Source: Phycisphaerae bacterium RAS1 (GTDB taxonomy: Bacteria > Planctomycetota > Phycisphaerae > UBA1845 > Fen-1342). From it: a stretch of DNA of 64,000 bases. Position numbers and translations under genes: made by a program. The stretch is from positions 2,232,001 to 2,296,000 of the forward strand of contig SMLU01000001.1 of the NCBI GenBank assembly GCA_007859745.1. The letters are read 5' to 3'. Below are positions 19,201-26,184 of this stretch, one piece after another (position 1 is the stretch's first letter; every line of letters begins with the position of its first letter). Below the pieces are notes generated by a model that saw only the letters and a program-made list of their open reading frames with translations, was not told the origin of the DNA and did no database searches.

Positions 19201-20304
<1,104 letters not shown>

Positions 20305-20315
20305 TCAAACAAGTC

Positions 20316-20343
20316 TTGACTTTCGGGTTCGCCCAAGTTATCT
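20316..20343 (+). promoter_or_regulatory. Sigma-70-like promoter ahead of the cobalamin riboswitch
   Basis: TTGACT at 20316-20321 and TTATCT at 20338-20343 are separated by 16 bases, a good match to a housekeeping promoter. Transcription would begin near 20350, just before the riboswitch aptamer. Confidence 0.6.
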
Positions 20344-20351
20344 AAGTTCTC

Positions 20352-20552
20352 GTAACTGGTGTCCTGCGCTTGTCGCGCAGGGAGAATAGGGAATCCGGTG
20401 TAAGTCCGGAGCGGCCCCGCCGCTGTAACCAGGTTATTGCAGCCGATCGCCATTGGCCCGCATCGCGGACCGAGAAGGTGCGGCTGCCCGTTCCGCCACT
20501 GCGGAGCACCTGGGAGCCAGAAGACCTGCCAGTGAAATCCTGGTCGCGTTGC
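20352..20552 (+). promoter_or_regulatory. Cobalamin riboswitch
   Basis: Conserved parts of the B12 aptamer are visible in order: GGGAATCCGGTGTAAGTCCG, GAGCGGCCCCGCCGCTGTAA, GCCACTGCGGAGCACCTGGG and AGCCAGAAGACCTGCC. High adenosyl- or other cobalamin should repress the downstream genes. About 220 bases separate the aptamer from the first ATG. They contain several GC-rich potential stems, including GGTGC-GAGA-GGCACC at about 20731-20747 shortly before the ribosome binding site. No clear terminator U-run is seen, so translational control is plausible. Confidence 0.95.
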
Positions 20553-20773
20553 CTTCGTGGGACGAGGTGACCGGCGTGGTTGCGCATCCGCCTGAATTCC
20601 CGCCGATGACCGCCGAGCTTTCAACCCGGGCGCAGATTTCGCGCGCCCGGCCCGGCGATCACGGAGCGGCCGGGCGACGAGCAGCCTCCGGGCCTCCCTC
20701 TCCCCGCTTTAGGCCACGCACGGCGCCGGCCGGTGCGAGAGGCACCGTTCGGGCGTCAGAGAGGGAAGAAGCC

Positions 20774-21580
20774 ATGTTGAGAGAGAGAGCGGCGCAGATT
20801 GGCGCCGGAGTCGCGGCGCTGTTGAGCTTGCCGGCGGCCTTCGCAGGGGCGGTGGATCCGTGGGCCGACGGGGTGGTCGCCTTTTCGCCGGGCGCGGATG
20901 GCAACCCCGCCTATCCCGATCCGGCGACCGCCATCGGTTCGCCGGAGCGATTTACCGGCGAGGGCACCGACTATTTCGGAGTCGTGTCGGTCTTCAATCC
21001 GCCCTTCGGCGGCGATGAAATCGTCAGCTTGGGCGCCGGTGGGTCGCTCACGGTCCGTTTCAACGAGCCGATCACGAATGATCCGGCCCACGCCTACGGC
21101 GTCGATCTGATCATCTTCAGCAACGGGTTCTTCATCGATGAGGCCTGGCCGGCCGGAGTCGTCGGCGGTCGGTTCACGACGGGCACGATGCGGGTTCGCG
21201 TCAGCCAGAACGGCGTCGATTTCCACGACGCGGGCGTCTTCGACCCGTCGCTTTACCCCACGCAAGGCTATCGCGATGTCGGTCCCTACAGCGCCACGCC
21301 CGGCGACGATCCGACGGAATTTCTGCGCCCTCTGAATCCGTCCCTGACATTCGCGGATTATCAGGGGCAAAGCCTCGGCGGCGTGTTGTCGCTCTACGAC
21401 GGCTCCGGCGGCGGCATCCCGGTCGATATTGCCGGCGCCGGTCTTTCGAGCGTGAACTTCGTCCGCGTCGAAGCGGCCGGCGGCGTGGTGCAGGTGGATG
21501 CATTCGCGACCGTTCCCGAGCCGAGCTCACTTCTCGCGTTTGGTTTGTTTGGTTGGCGTGCTCTCTGGAGGAGAGGCTGA
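20774..21580 (+). CDS. B12-regulated PEP-CTERM-like surface protein
   Basis: A 268-residue exported protein with signal peptide (VAALLSLPAAFAGA) and a C-terminal VPEPSSLLAFGLFG...WRRG tail: the PEP motif, hydrophobic helix and basic end that characterise PEP-CTERM sorting signals. The middle is beta-rich, with SLGAGGSLTVRFNEPI followed by YGVDLIIFSNGFF. This pattern resembles cobalamin-regulated cell-surface proteins seen in other Gram-negative bacteria, where it is usually next to B12 uptake genes. The start has GGGAAGAAG 4-10 bases upstream. It is the first gene after the riboswitch and is likely expressed under B12 starvation. Role in capturing corrinoids is inferred, not shown. Confidence 0.8.
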   Translation: MLRERAAQIGAGVAALLSLPAAFAGAVDPWADGVVAFSPGADGNPAYPDPATAIGSPERFTGEGTDYFGVVSVFNPPFGGDEIVSLGAGGSLTVRFNEPITNDPAHAYGVDLIIFSNGFFIDEAWPAGVVGGRFTTGTMRVRVSQNGVDFHDAGVFDPSLYPTQGYRDVGPYSATPGDDPTEFLRPLNPSLTFADYQGQSLGGVLSLYDGSGGGIPVDIAGAGLSSVNFVRVEAAGGVVQVDAFATVPEPSSLLAFGLFGWRALWRRG

Positions 21581-21687
21581 GGGGACGCGTACGCGGGGCG
21601 GCGGTCGCTCGACCGCCGCCCCGCGGATGGCGCAGGGGCGCAATTCGAACCGTCGTGCACTGCAATCGAATCTCTGTGTAGAACGTG

Positions 21688-23208
21688 ATGGCGAATCGTT
21701 ACAGGCGAAAGCTGCGGGGCTGCTGGCCGGCGGCGCTTCTGCCGGCGGTCGTGGCCGCGTCGGCCGTGGCCGGGGAATGGACGCACCTGGCGCGCGACGC
21801 GCGCCGCAGCGGCGTCGCGGCGCGCGGACCGCGAGACTTGTCATCGGTCGATTGGTGCGCCACGCTCAATCCCGATGAGGAGTTCGTCTGGCGCTCGTCC
21901 GTGGTCGTTGGCGGGTGCCGCGCGTACGCAAACGTGCGCGTGTTCGACGGAGACGACGTGCAGAGCGGCAACCGCTTGATCGCGCTGCACCGGGACGACG
22001 GCCAGATCAAATGGCGCTGCGAGCTTCCGCCCGACGTGCTAGACAGTATCAGCACGCCGACGATCAGCGCGGCGCACGAACTGGCGATCCTGGGGATCGA
22101 TCAAACGCTCTTTGCGGTCGATACGCACGTCGGTTCGATCGCGTGGCAGCGCCCGTTGCCGCGGCGGATTGTGAACGCGTCGGCCGCTGTCAGCGACAAC
22201 CTGAAGAACGGCGAGACGCCGGCCAATCGCGTGTTCATCACGGACTACGCGCCCTACTCGACCGGCGCGCTCTACGCGGTCAATCTCGACGCCTACCACG
22301 CGAGCAAGAACCCGTTTCAGCCCGGCGAGATTGCGTGGAGCGTCACCCTCGCCGGAAGCAGCGGCGCCACGCCCGCACTCGACGGGTCGTGCGTCTACGT
22401 GGCATGCACGAGCGGCGAGATTCGCGCCTACGACGCGCGCGACGGCAGCCTCGAATGGGCGCAGCCGGGACTCGGCCCGGGGGGGTTCTTCGGCGGCGTC
22501 GGCGTGAGCGCGGGCGCGGTCTACGCGGCAACGTACAACTTCTTCGGTTCGCAGAACAACAGCCGACTCTACAAGCTGAGTTCCGCGGACGGCGCGATCA
22601 TCTGGCAGACGCCCTGCGAACGCACGACCAGCATCCCGGTCGTCGTCGATTCGCGAATCTACGTCAGCGGCGGCATCAACGGATTCGGCTCGGTGGAAAA
22701 AGTGCAGGCCTTTGCCGACGGCGGAACCTCCGCGACGCTGCTTTGGGACACGGCGGCGATTGAGCCGACGGTCGGCGGCTGGACGCATCAGCCCGCTTGC
22801 GCCGACGGCCTGCTCTACGTCGGCACGCCCGCGCCCGGCGGCGACTGGAGTCCCTACGTCCAGCTTGCAATCATCGATACCTTGAAATCGCCGGGCGACG
22901 CCGGGTTCATCATGGCCGTCCATCCAGGCTCGGGCGGGTCGCCGGCGCTGGCCGATGGCGCGGCGTTTTCGTTCGGCAGCGGCGGGCTGTTTGCTCTTGC
23001 GGGCGATCCCCTCGGCGACATGAACTGCGACGGTGCGGTGGACGTGCTCGACATCAACCCGTTCGTGCTGGCGCTGTTTGACCCGCTCGCGTATGACGTG
23101 CTCTATCCCGGTTGCAATATGCAGAACGCAGACGCGAACGGAGACGAGCAGGTAAACGTGCTGGATATCAACGCCTTCGTCGATCTTCTGGCGGGAGACG
23201 GCGGTTGA
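21688..23208 (+). CDS. Exported PQQ-type beta-propeller with dockerin-like tail
   Basis: A 506-residue exported protein. A signal peptide (CWPAALLPAVVAASAVAG) is followed by repeated PQQ-like beta-propeller blades (for example DDGQIKWRCELP, HVGSIAWQRPL, DGSLEWAQP, DGAIIWQTPC). The last 70 residues carry two Ca-binding dockerin-like repeats, MNCDGAVDVLDINPFVLAL and DANGDEQVNVLDINAFVDLL. It follows the PEP-CTERM-like gene by about 105 bases with no terminator seen and is probably under the same B12 riboswitch. A surface beta-propeller in a B12 regulon recalls BtuG of Bacteroidetes, which binds B12. That parallel is functional inference, not demonstrated homology. A GTG lies one codon upstream of the chosen ATG. 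Confidence 0.85.
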   Translation: MANRYRRKLRGCWPAALLPAVVAASAVAGEWTHLARDARRSGVAARGPRDLSSVDWCATLNPDEEFVWRSSVVVGGCRAYANVRVFDGDDVQSGNRLIALHRDDGQIKWRCELPPDVLDSISTPTISAAHELAILGIDQTLFAVDTHVGSIAWQRPLPRRIVNASAAVSDNLKNGETPANRVFITDYAPYSTGALYAVNLDAYHASKNPFQPGEIAWSVTLAGSSGATPALDGSCVYVACTSGEIRAYDARDGSLEWAQPGLGPGGFFGGVGVSAGAVYAATYNFFGSQNNSRLYKLSSADGAIIWQTPCERTTSIPVVVDSRIYVSGGINGFGSVEKVQAFADGGTSATLLWDTAAIEPTVGGWTHQPACADGLLYVGTPAPGGDWSPYVQLAIIDTLKSPGDAGFIMAVHPGSGGSPALADGAAFSFGSGGLFALAGDPLGDMNCDGAVDVLDINPFVLALFDPLAYDVLYPGCNMQNADANGDEQVNVLDINAFVDLLAGDGG

Positions 23209-23999
23209 AAACACGGCGAGCCATCACGCTGGTCGAGCTCCTCACCTGCATCGCGATCATCGTCGCGCTGCTGGCGATCTTGCTGCCCACGATCACCCGG
23301 GCCAAGTCGCAGGCGCGGCGCGTCAAGTGCATGAGCAACCTGCGGCAGCTCGGGGCGGCGTTTCACATGTACGCCGGCGACCACCTCGGCCGGGCCATGC
23401 CGCTGGCCTATACCGACAACGACGTGCTGGCCGGGGGCGATCCGGTGTATTGGTGGGGCGCCAGCAGCGGCGACGGCGTGGACCACACGCGCGGCTTCAC
23501 CTGGCCTTATCTGAACAGCGACCTGCGTGCGGCGGGCATCTACGAATGCCCGGAGCAGCCGGTCGGCTCCTACCTTCCGCAGGGCGCGTCCAGGTCGGTC
23601 ACCAGCACGTACGGGTACAACGGCTATTACCTCTCTCCGCCGCACACGCCCGGGTGGTCGATCTCGATCGGCCGTCGTCCGTGGCAGATGGTGGACACGC
23701 TGGCCCGCCCGCAGTTGGTTTTCGCGTTCGCCGACACGGCCCTGGATGTTGGCTTGGAAGTGCCGCAGAACTGCGCCCTGCTCGATCCGCCTTTTCTCTT
23801 TTCGAACCGGCGCTGGCACCGGAACGACTCGCCGACAACCTCCTTCCGGCACGCCGGCCGTACCGTCGTGGTGTGCGCGGACGGGCACGCCGTGGCCTGC
23901 GGGCTCGAGGGCGGGCGGATGGCGTCGCCATCGCTGCAGATCGGCTCGGTCGGCTTGCAGAACGGGCCGCACTACGTGCCCGATTGGCGCGACTGGTGA
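23205..23999 (+). CDS. Pseudopilin-like protein with prepilin signal and H-x8-DG motif
   Basis: A 264-residue protein starting at a TTG that overlaps the stop of the previous gene (TTGA), with GGGAG about 8 bases upstream, so translation is coupled. The N-terminus is a prepilin peptidase signal: basic KTRRA, then ITLVELL with Glu5, then a hydrophobic helix (CIAIIVALLAILLPTI). The C-terminus has FRHAGRTVVVCADGHA, the H-x(8-9)-DG motif of planctomycete pseudopilin-like proteins. Third gene of the B12 riboswitch operon. It is probably exported by a type II secretion or type IV pilus-like route. What it does in B12 nutrition is unknown. Confidence 0.85.
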   Translation: MKTRRAITLVELLTCIAIIVALLAILLPTITRAKSQARRVKCMSNLRQLGAAFHMYAGDHLGRAMPLAYTDNDVLAGGDPVYWWGASSGDGVDHTRGFTWPYLNSDLRAAGIYECPEQPVGSYLPQGASRSVTSTYGYNGYYLSPPHTPGWSISIGRRPWQMVDTLARPQLVFAFADTALDVGLEVPQNCALLDPPFLFSNRRWHRNDSPTTSFRHAGRTVVVCADGHAVACGLEGGRMASPSLQIGSVGLQNGPHYVPDWRDW

Positions 24000-24084
24000 G
24001 GACATAGCCGCCCAATTTGTCGCGCGCTCGACCGACCAGGGTGTGGCCGACGTGCTTGGTAGACGCCGCCGGCCGGGCCGCCTT

Positions 24085-24184
24085 TCCGAACCCGCCGCGC
24101 CAAGCGGCGGGGTGACGTCCGCGGCCTGAGGGTCGCCGATCGCTGGCGATCGTCAACCCGCCGCTCGGCGCGGCGGGTTCCGAA
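24085..24184. mobile_element. MITE-like double-hairpin element, subfamily with inner CGATCG
   Basis: Opposed arms as in the other copies, but the centre reads CGATCGCTGGCGATCG, shared in altered form with the copy at 34592. The left flank (AGACGCCGCCGGCC) is the complement of the right flank seen in other copies, which supports terminal inverted repeats. It lies in the 409-base gap before rpsA. Confidence 0.78.
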
Positions 24185-24252
24185 AGACGCCGCCGATCGC
24201 GACCTGTAGCGGGGTGCAGCCGACCCACCGCCTACCGCGCTCACGCTGGGCA

Positions 24253-24408: not shown

Positions 24409-26184
24409 ATGGTTGATCTCAATCTCATCAAGGAAATCGATATCTCTGACGCCGAGCTGGACGCCCAGCTTTCGGCGGCGTTCGGCGGATCGCTGACGCG
24501 CGAGTCGATCGAGAAGGCAGTTGGCGCCCCGGCGGCGGCCCGACCGGTGTCGACGCCCGGCGAGGACTCGGCCCCGATTCGCCGGGCGCGGGTCGTGGCG
24601 ATGACGGCCAATGAGGCGGTGCTTGACATCGGCATGAAGAGCGAAGGCATCATTCCGCTGAACGAGTGGGATGATCCGTCGCAGGTGGATGTGGGCGACG
24701 AGGTCGAGGTTTTGATCGAGGAGATCGAGAGCGACACCGGCATGGTGCTCGTCTCCAAGCGCAAGGCCGACCGCATCCTGAACTGGCGCCGCATCGTCGA
24801 AAGCACCAAGGAAGGCGACGACTGCAAGGGCCGCGTCATCAAGAAGATCAAGGGCGGCCTGCTGGTCGACATCGGCGTAAACGTGTTCCTGCCCGCGTCG
24901 CAGGTGGATATCCGCCGGCCGGCCGACATCGGCGAGTACATCGGCCAGGAGATCGACGCCAAGATCCTGAAGATCGACAAGGAACGCCGCAACATCGTTA
25001 TCTCGCGCCGCAAGCGGATCGAGGAGGAGCGGGCGCGGGCGAAAGAGCGGCTGATGGCGGAGATTCAGGTCGGTCAGGTCCGCAAGGGCCAGGTGAAGAA
25101 CATCGCCGACTTCGGCGCGTTCGTGGACCTGGGCGGCATCGACGGCCTGCTGCACATCACCGACATGTCCTGGGACCGCATCGAGCACCCGAGCAAGATG
25201 CTGAAGATCGACCAGCAGATCGAGATCATGGTGCTGAGCGTCGATCGCGACCGGGAAAAGATCGCCCTGGGCCTCAAGCAGCGGCTGGAAAACCCGTGGG
25301 AGAAGGTGGCCGAGCGCTACCCGGTCGGCTCGCGCGTCAAGGGCGAAGTGGTCAACATCATGAACTACGGCGCCTTCGTGAAGCTCGAACCGGGCATCGA
25401 GGGTCTGGTCCACATCAGCGAGATGAGCTGGACGCGGCGGATCAATCATCCGTCCGAGGTGGTCAACGTCGCCGACAACATCGAAGTCGTCGTGCTGGAC
25501 ATCAACAAGGACAAGCAGGAAATCTCGCTTGGAATGAAGCAGATCGAGGTCAATCCCTGGACCACGGTCGCGCAGAAGTACCCGCCCGGGACGGTTGTCG
25601 AAGGCACGATTCGCAACCTCACCAATTACGGCGCGTTCGTCGAGATCGAGGAAGGCATCGACGGCCTCTTGCACATCTCCGACATGAGCTGGACCAAGAA
25701 GGTCAGTCACCCGTCGGAAATGGCCAAGAAGGGCGACCGCGTCCGCTGCGTCGTCCTGACGGTGGACCAGGAAAAGATGCGCGTCGCCCTCGGACTCAAG
25801 CAGATGACCGAGGACCCGTGGGTTCGCGCCGTGCCGGAGCGCTATCAGCCGGGCATGGTCGTCCGCGGCAAGGTCACCAAGATCACCAACTTCGGCGTCT
25901 TCGTCGAGCTGGAGCAGGACCTCGAGGGCCTGCTGCACGTCTCGGAACTGGCCGATCACAAGGTCGAGAACCCGCAGGACGAGGTGAAGATCGGCGACGA
26001 GGTCGACGTCAAAATCCTGCGCGTCGACACGGTCGAGCGGAAAATCGGCCTGTCCAAGAAGCGGGCCGACTGGGCCGGCGAGGCGGCCGAAGTCGGCGGG
26101 ACGCCCGCCGCCGAGAAGAAGGAAAAGAAGAAGCGCCGCGGCGGTCTGCACACCGGCGAAGAGGGCGGCCTGAACATCGGGTAG
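24409..26184 (+). CDS. rpsA: 30S ribosomal protein S1
   Basis: A 591-residue RNA-binding ribosomal protein that helps mRNAs dock on the 30S subunit. Six S1 (OB-fold) domains in tandem are visible, each with the GAFV(D/E/K)L or related core: two divergent N-terminal domains (AVLDIGMKSEGIIP, GLLVDIGVNVFLPASQV), then four strong repeats (IADFGAFVDLGGIDGLLHI, MNYGAFVKLEPGIEGLVHI, TNYGAFVEIEEGIDGLLHI, TNFGVFVELEQDLEGLLHV). Ends in a Lys-rich tail (EKKEKKKRRGG). Length fits six-domain S1. Confidence 0.97.
   Translation: MVDLNLIKEIDISDAELDAQLSAAFGGSLTRESIEKAVGAPAAARPVSTPGEDSAPIRRARVVAMTANEAVLDIGMKSEGIIPLNEWDDPSQVDVGDEVEVLIEEIESDTGMVLVSKRKADRILNWRRIVESTKEGDDCKGRVIKKIKGGLLVDIGVNVFLPASQVDIRRPADIGEYIGQEIDAKILKIDKERRNIVISRRKRIEEERARAKERLMAEIQVGQVRKGQVKNIADFGAFVDLGGIDGLLHITDMSWDRIEHPSKMLKIDQQIEIMVLSVDRDREKIALGLKQRLENPWEKVAERYPVGSRVKGEVVNIMNYGAFVKLEPGIEGLVHISEMSWTRRINHPSEVVNVADNIEVVVLDINKDKQEISLGMKQIEVNPWTTVAQKYPPGTVVEGTIRNLTNYGAFVEIEEGIDGLLHISDMSWTKKVSHPSEMAKKGDRVRCVVLTVDQEKMRVALGLKQMTEDPWVRAVPERYQPGMVVRGKVTKITNFGVFVELEQDLEGLLHVSELADHKVENPQDEVKIGDEVDVKILRVDTVERKIGLSKKRADWAGEAAEVGGTPAAEKKEKKKRRGGLHTGEEGGLNIG

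Follow-up and report, generated by a model that had tools for sequence, protein, structure and literature searches.

We analysed a 64,000-nucleotide stretch of the genome of Phycisphaerae bacterium RAS1 (the whole of which we call the window), in which a cobalamin riboswitch stands in front of three genes, named A, B and C here, for a PEP-CTERM-tailed exported protein, a beta-propeller and a pseudopilin. Our analysis points, with considerable though not complete confidence, to a cobamide-acquisition operon of B12-requiring Phycisphaerae, in which A is the likely binder and C a near-constant partner. A role in corrinoid capture is well grounded because the set recurs behind riboswitches, because it shares one operon with btuFCD in a group of relatives (family f3), and because A has a predicted fold of the BtuH type. 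An earlier note, made from the sequence of the window, had suggested a corrinoid-capture system that included a pilin-like protein; the capture role gains support from the same three lines, and the pilin-like C proved to be the most constant partner that A has.

Linkage of the riboswitch to genes A and C

Infernal recovered the aptamer (RF00174) at 102.6 bits against a gathering score of 31.5 (E 1.5e-24), with a match that spans model positions 1 to 189 of 189, so that its earlier description as well conserved stands. It was the sole cobalamin riboswitch detected in the 5.5-Mb genome.

When the single sequence of A was used as the query, it was found in 8 of 149 genomes of the phylum, its own included. 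In six of the seven others, A was preceded on its own strand by a riboswitch (with, in two cases, a gene of a further PEP-CTERM family, Y, in between), and the seventh was cut by a contig end. A profile search for A covered 397 genomes of the class; because dockerin tails in the profile pushed up its raw tally (316 of 397), we did not take this tally as a count of A. Among approximately 139 further genomes with strong matches, 70 (every second one, listed by hand) were searched for the riboswitch, and 67 of the 71 A genes present (66 of the 70 genomes) lay behind one on the same strand and contig. Viewed from the other side, this searched set held 79 riboswitch matches (77 over the cut-off), of which 67 precede A; 55 genomes had one match and 12 had two.

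Neighbouring genes were counted in a census of the 75 loci with an A hit below 1e-30, and loci without A were looked at separately. A homologue of C lay within 2.5 kb of A, on the same strand, in 73 of the 75 loci, and the two that lack it (L120 and L136) end at contig ends. B was found in 30 of the 75. The earlier note had asked whether the three proteins recur behind cobalamin riboswitches, and these counts bear the idea out, most clearly for A and C; homologues routinely found without a riboswitch, which would have spoken against its proposal, were not seen for A.

The same pattern was seen in 55 loci of named genomes, mostly metagenome-assembled genomes titled Phycisphaerae, Phycisphaerales, Phycisphaeraceae or Planctomycetota, which overlap the main set and are not an independent sample. 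There, the riboswitch accompanied A in 51 loci (not in L211, L231, L242 and L256, the last two of which have little upstream sequence to show one), and C was present in 45 (not found in L206, L210, L211, L226, L228, L231, L233, L241, L242 and L252, among them several loci that stop shortly after A or within B).

Some cases weigh against a strict linkage. Three of the 70 genomes (G317, G329 and G323) carry A and gave no riboswitch match under stricter filters. Real exceptions in the stretches examined are L211, where A has no riboswitch and no C beside it, and L210, which has no C in the 1.8 kb examined. In a further genome (G519), A and the riboswitch lie at the ends of different contigs.

We also found A in metagenome-assembled genomes titled Omnitrophota, Deltaproteobacteria and Desulfotomaculum, where mis-binning is possible. 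Given these, and given that the domain of A is common to BtuH and BtuG of Bacteroidetes, the earlier description of the system as planctomycete-specific was too strong. In the locus titled Desulfotomaculum (L242, 353-3072), A is followed by a PQQ_2 propeller, and no riboswitch lies in the short upstream stretch; the presence of the A gene there may reflect either horizontal transfer or mis-binning.

Family Y was found in 22 of the 75 A loci, in two of them together with B. Its members share a motif like WGYRWDG and in several copies a PEP-CTERM tail, and the copies scanned matched nothing else in Pfam. Y lies before A, and it is likewise found in second-riboswitch loci that lack A (L025 9748-10338, L026 3544-4578, L123, L131, L132 and L133).

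The leader between the aptamer and A is the presumed expression platform. No terminator-like site was found in it by a consensus scan, the predicted fold of 20548-20800 was about as stable as that of shuffled sequences (z 0.14), and leader and aptamer folded together gave a z of -1.79 against shuffles; by eye, a possible anti-Shine-Dalgarno pairing was noticed. Control at the level of translation is presumed. The promoter that the earlier note had assigned to the aptamer found no backing: a scan for sigma-70-type promoters across 20200-24200 returned 0 matches (0.4 in shuffles), although promoters of planctomycetes may depart from it.

Predicted fold and likely ligand of A

A Pfam scan of A returned nothing besides the PEP-CTERM tail, which fell just under its cut-off in Pfam (PF07589, 19.9 bits against 20.7) and reached it in NCBIfam (TIGR02595, 16.4 bits against 16). 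Membership in the DUF4465 family was considered and dropped, as the scan gave A no PF14717 match even at E values of up to 1.

Structure prediction was more informative. An AlphaFold model of residues 22-250, built from 74 sequences, had a predicted local distance difference test score (pLDDT) of 96.7 and a predicted template modelling score (pTM) of 0.93. With this model Foldseek gave a single match below 1e-3, to BtuG1 of B. theta (8BLW chain B, 2.9e-5). In a VIA-align comparison with 996 chains, drawn from the top Foldseek chains, the first place went to chain B of 7BIZ (BtuH2, residues 315-593; Z 13.2, 146 aligned, 3.8 Å, 17% identity) and the second to 8BLW chain B (Z 12.6), with CBM32 and similar modules ranking below both (Z of 10.7 or less). 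As modelled, A shares the fold of the BtuH2 C-terminal domain. The case from sequence is thinner. A bridge from A to BtuH2 is provided by a homologue in another planctomycete class (G011), which has a riboswitch in front and in which PKD domains precede an A-like domain that matches 7BIZ at E 1.6e-10 and 8BLW at 1.4e-12. When compared by hhalign with a 109-residue piece of BtuH2, the A3 alignment scored 91.9% (E 6.9e-7 over 60 columns), as against 6.9% for the shallower A1 alignment.

BtuH2 binds B12 through its C-terminal domain, and its Asn399 touches the phosphate, according to the BtuH2 report (PMC8941943). This residue, which is position 299 of the 7BIZ chain (an offset of 100 that also fits Gln333, Phe401, Trp577 and Leu578 as named in that text), aligns with N117 of A, and N117 is kept in 72 of 75 homologues. 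The nearby D111 is kept in all 75, and Phe401 could be placed in part (F in 41 of 75).

Several results count against this assignment. No counterpart could be placed in A for the BtuH2 contacts Gln333, His476, Tyr510, Trp511 and Trp577, and for this reason the binding mode of A may differ from that of BtuH2. The Foldseek superposition on 8BLW was loose (TM-score 0.39), and a shallow model from 7 sequences (pLDDT 66.5) found generic CBM32/discoidin folds only, BtuH not being singled out. Likewise, searches of the PDB with the A of the window alone and with profiles A1 and A3 gave no BtuH match. Since the CBM32/discoidin fold is a common one, A may have another ligand. Taking the model together with these points, we regard A, rather than the propeller B, as the likely corrinoid binder.

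Gene C, a pseudopilin

The earlier assignment of C as a pseudopilin is upheld by its DUF1559/SBP_bac_10 region (26.3 bits against a Pfam cut-off of 23.3), although the prepilin motif is weak in the copy of the window (N_methyl, 15.7 bits, under the cut-off of 21.2; the copies in L025 and L026 are above it). Against a profile built from seven operon copies, the 73 operon copies scored at least 114 bits, whereas no other pseudopilin of the window's genome exceeded 94, and the top two of these paralogues matched only about the first 130 of the 272 profile positions. Scores of this kind, for A, B, C and Y alike, favour operon copies because the profiles were built from operon copies. In a tree of C, the operon copies needed 3 label changes against a shuffled mean of 23.1, and the C of the window fell within a supported set of 15 operon copies. 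This tree came from a quick search over 37 of the 73 operon copies, 24 own-genome paralogues and 8 others, and has many open forks; the three changes therefore do not establish a single origin of the operon copies.

Riboswitch loci without A, and links to import and synthesis genes

Among 20 A-negative genomes (taken from 81), 14 still carry a riboswitch, the negative status being unsure in that five candidates were scored per genome and 1.5 kb beside the riboswitch was examined. C stands behind the riboswitch without A, in the stretch examined, at five loci, and so is not tied to A alone. At four of these (L198, L199, L201 and L202) it is accompanied by a Y-like gene, recognised by profile in L202 and by eye in the others. 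At the fifth (L197 1793-3193) C comes first and is followed by a fragment of an adenosylhomocysteinase gene (PF05221), a methionine-cycle gene. Elsewhere, A-less riboswitches are followed by B as the first gene (L192), a DUF4465-like gene (L194), a divergent A-like gene (L200) or other exported proteins. At L189, L190, L191, L193 and L195 (f78/f79), the first gene belongs to a dockerin-tailed exported family with a motif like ETFxDDPxxxxRF, seen by eye.

A tie to B12 import lies in family f3, where the operon runs on from C into btuF-btuD-btuC in all three loci examined (L028, L082 and L102, out of 90 loci scanned, 75 of which have A). In L028, the genes after C match Peripla_BP_2, ABC_tran and FecCD in Pfam, and the A-like gene is a divergent form (E 2e-8). 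DUF4465 genes stand beside a divergent A-like gene and C in the operons of L028 and L030 (191.4 and 175.7 bits, respectively). No TonB-dependent receptor was found in the A-C operons examined for import genes. The earlier statement that the operon has no recognisable transporter thus holds for the window and fails for the f3 relatives; at the level of the whole genome, it has to be read beside the FecCD and Peripla_BP_2 genes that lie elsewhere and a single TonB-dependent receptor of unassigned substrate.

One genome (G057) carries, besides an A'-C-btuFCD operon, a second riboswitch operon (L029 2705-9793) with genes for a phosphatase, CobU, DBI_PRT (CobT), CobS, an aminotransferase and CobD/CbiB. 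This second operon ends in a gene for a TonB receptor, for which the B12-receptor model scored best (351.2 of 599.7 bits). In the locus titled Deltaproteobacteria (L233 3-2163), A and a TonB-receptor fragment are divergently oriented, and a separate cobalamin riboswitch precedes each of them. The best model for this fragment is again the B12 receptor (113.8 bits, under the cut-off), and no C was found in L233.

B12 physiology of the host genomes

CbiC was found in none of 20 A-carrying genomes (control genomes were positive in 7 of 14 cases), and proteins with a B12-binding domain (PF02310) were found in all 20, although not all PF02310 proteins use B12. FecCD was present in 20 of the 20 and Peripla_BP_2 in 19. 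A TonB-dependent barrel was found in 7 of the genomes, with no match at E up to 1e-3 in the other 13. These genomes appear to require B12, to lack the CbiC step and, for the most part, to have no detectable BtuB-type gate.

The window's genome itself encodes a full MetH (1233 bits against a cut-off of 1010.85). Its FecCD and Peripla_BP_2 genes lie apart. It also encodes one TonB-dependent receptor (G000:C3:409436-410467; L153 6531-8564), a point against the capture reading proposed below. The best NCBIfam model for this receptor is TOL_0244 (300.9 of 645 bits), with the B12 receptor ranking lower (115.3 of 599.7 bits), both below cut-off; a nusA-type gene is found two genes away, and the neighbours scanned include none for B12. 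As to the question in the earlier note of whether btuB or btuF homologues occur elsewhere in the genome, FecCD, Peripla_BP_2 and a single TonB receptor are there, and the B12-receptor model stays below its cut-off.

Proposed function and alternatives

We envisage that scarcity of B12 would lead the riboswitch to permit expression of the operon, as expected from how this riboswitch class works. A would be exported and would bind corrinoids at the cell surface through its jelly-roll domain of the BtuH kind, with B, where present, presumably acting as an accessory exported propeller. C, as a dedicated pseudopilin, would build or cap a short pilus-like structure, and may either display A or help to carry the captured vitamin to the periplasm, where import of the BtuF-BtuCD type would take over.

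The most serious alternative, to which we would give somewhat less than an even chance, accepts capture by A as real and sees in C only a secretion helper, that is, a part of a type II secretion or pilus machine which exports A and B, while B12 enters through porins or an existing TonB receptor. C does belong to the pseudopilin class, the usual role of which is in secretion or pilus assembly, and the window's genome does have one TonB-dependent receptor. Moreover, at four of the five A-less loci with C, another exported protein (Y-like by eye) lies between, as would fit a general helper. Against this alternative stand the 13 of 20 A-carrying genomes with no TonB-receptor match, and the five A-less loci, which indicate that C does not serve A alone.

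A bolder version of the capture reading, which we consider doubtful, has a pseudopilus, and not a TonB/BtuB receptor, bring B12 through the outer membrane of Phycisphaerae. Here, C would form the fibre or its tip, and interchangeable binders (A, DUF4465 proteins, possibly Y and B) would dock on it for delivery to BtuF.

It is improbable that the products are adhesive or matrix proteins merely timed by B12 status, none of them binding the vitamin. PEP-CTERM, dockerin-like and pilin features are all present and are common in matrix and appendage proteins, and the fold of A is one that carbohydrate-binding CBM32 modules also have; yet relatives share the operon with btuFCD and DUF4465 genes, and the fold of A is nearer to BtuH/BtuG than to CBM32.

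There remains the propeller, to which the earlier note had given emphasis. B is of the PQQ type, as described there, its repeats being PQQ_2/BamB-like (PQQ_2, 73.4 bits, 2.7e-20), and its dockerin-like tail was seen as a sub-threshold match only (Dockerin_1, 13.4 bits against 22.9). PF16819, which we take to be the propeller family of BtuG, did not appear in the Pfam results for B at E values of up to 1, where other propeller models were listed. That corrinoids are bound mainly by B, as the planctomycete equivalent of BtuG and with A as an accessory, is brought to mind by a propeller behind a B12 riboswitch, by its first place in L192 and by the A-propeller pair in L242, and is nevertheless very unlikely for an optional gene that went undetected in 45 of the 75 loci (a number of these being truncated) and whose product matches PQQ_2/BamB models in place of PF16819.

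Operon layout and genomic surroundings

The coordinates (Table 1) confirm the earlier account of three closely spaced genes after the aptamer, with the TTG start codon of C (23205-23207) overlapping the TGA stop codon of B (23206-23208). The genome was grouped in family f1, together with G241 and G246. A 24-base palindromic word, AACCCGCCGCGCCAAGCGGCGGGG, occurs in 21 copies in the window when up to 3 mismatches are allowed, against 0 in shuffled sequence. Most copies form inverted pairs approximately 67 bases apart, and the word is a dispersed repetitive extragenic palindrome (REP)-like element. One pair flanks the operon on each side, at 20178-20201 (+) and 20244-20267 (-) and at 24089-24112 (+) and 24156-24179 (-).

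Table 1. Features of the riboswitch operon and its neighbours (window positions)
Feature	Position	Strand	Basis or remarks
Cobalamin riboswitch aptamer, RF00174	20340-20547	+	Infernal
Leader from aptamer to gene A, presumed expression platform	20548-20773	+	Position
Gene A, PEP-CTERM-tailed exported protein, BtuH-type predicted fold	20774-21580	+	268 aa; predicted-fold core at residues ~27-247
Gene B, PQQ/BamB-type beta-propeller, weak dockerin-like tail	21688-23208	+	506 aa
Gene C, pseudopilin of a subfamily found in such operons	23205-23999	+	264 aa
Epimerase-family gene, divergent, upstream of operon	19201-20244	-	Pfam
S1-repeat protein gene, ~400 bases downstream of operon	24409-26184	+	Pfam

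Comparison with known systems

In the open-licence literature we found neither a B12-riboswitch operon described as containing a pseudopilin nor any account of the genes under cobalamin riboswitches in Phycisphaerae; a cobalamin riboswitch is noted in the planctomycete Thermogutta terrifontis, in a passage that does not give its genes (PMC5673643). Our findings extend a capture module of the BtuH type from gut Bacteroidetes to an environmental class of which none of the 20 members examined gave a match to CbiC and most gave none to a TonB receptor, and they bear directly on how B12-dependent planctomycetes acquire the vitamin. In addition, a conserved, riboswitch-marked pseudopilin offers a concrete handle on the catching of nutrients by planctomycete pili.

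The nearest relatives of the system are found in the BtuH family, BtuH2 (7BIZ) and the BtuH-type domain of BtuG1 (8BLW) being the top structural matches of A. The likeness extends to B12-riboswitch-linked genes, to a D-x5-N motif with the phosphate-contacting Asn and, in the G011 homologue, to PKD domains placed before the A-like domain as in BtuH2. Unlike BtuH2, A is a single-domain PEP-CTERM protein and not a predicted lipoprotein, its identity to BtuH2 is low, most of the BtuH2 ligand side chains are not identifiable in it, and its neighbour is a pseudopilin and not btuB.

A second comparison is with DUF4465/BtuJ (PF14717). According to one report, eight distantly related DUF4465 proteins bind B12, including one from the planctomycete Mucisphaera, and propellers of PF16819 occur near DUF4465 genes (PMC13398666). 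Like A, these proteins are exported and riboswitch-linked, and they share operons with A-like and C genes in L028 and L030; the A of the window differs in having no PF14717 match.

For C, the closest parallel may be with planctomycete fibres. In the sections of the two papers that we could draw on, gold-dextran was seen at pili-like fibres (PMC5394234), and planctomycete pili were likened to fishing rods (PMC8882080). As far as these sections go, a nutrient is caught there on pilin fibres before it enters the periplasm, but no vitamin is involved, whereas here a specific pseudopilin is genetically tied to B12. By analogy, a B12 version of the fishing-rod idea would fit C; secretion of A by a type II-like machine would fit too.

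With the BtuB-BtuG/BtuFCD system, finally, the operon would have in common surface capture followed by BtuF-BtuCD import, as reflected in the btuFCD genes of the f3 operons, and it differs in having no TonB receptor in the A-C operons examined, nor any match to one in most of the host genomes searched. The operon is best read as a variation on known surface systems for the capture of B12, with the pseudopilin as its unexpected, near-constant part.

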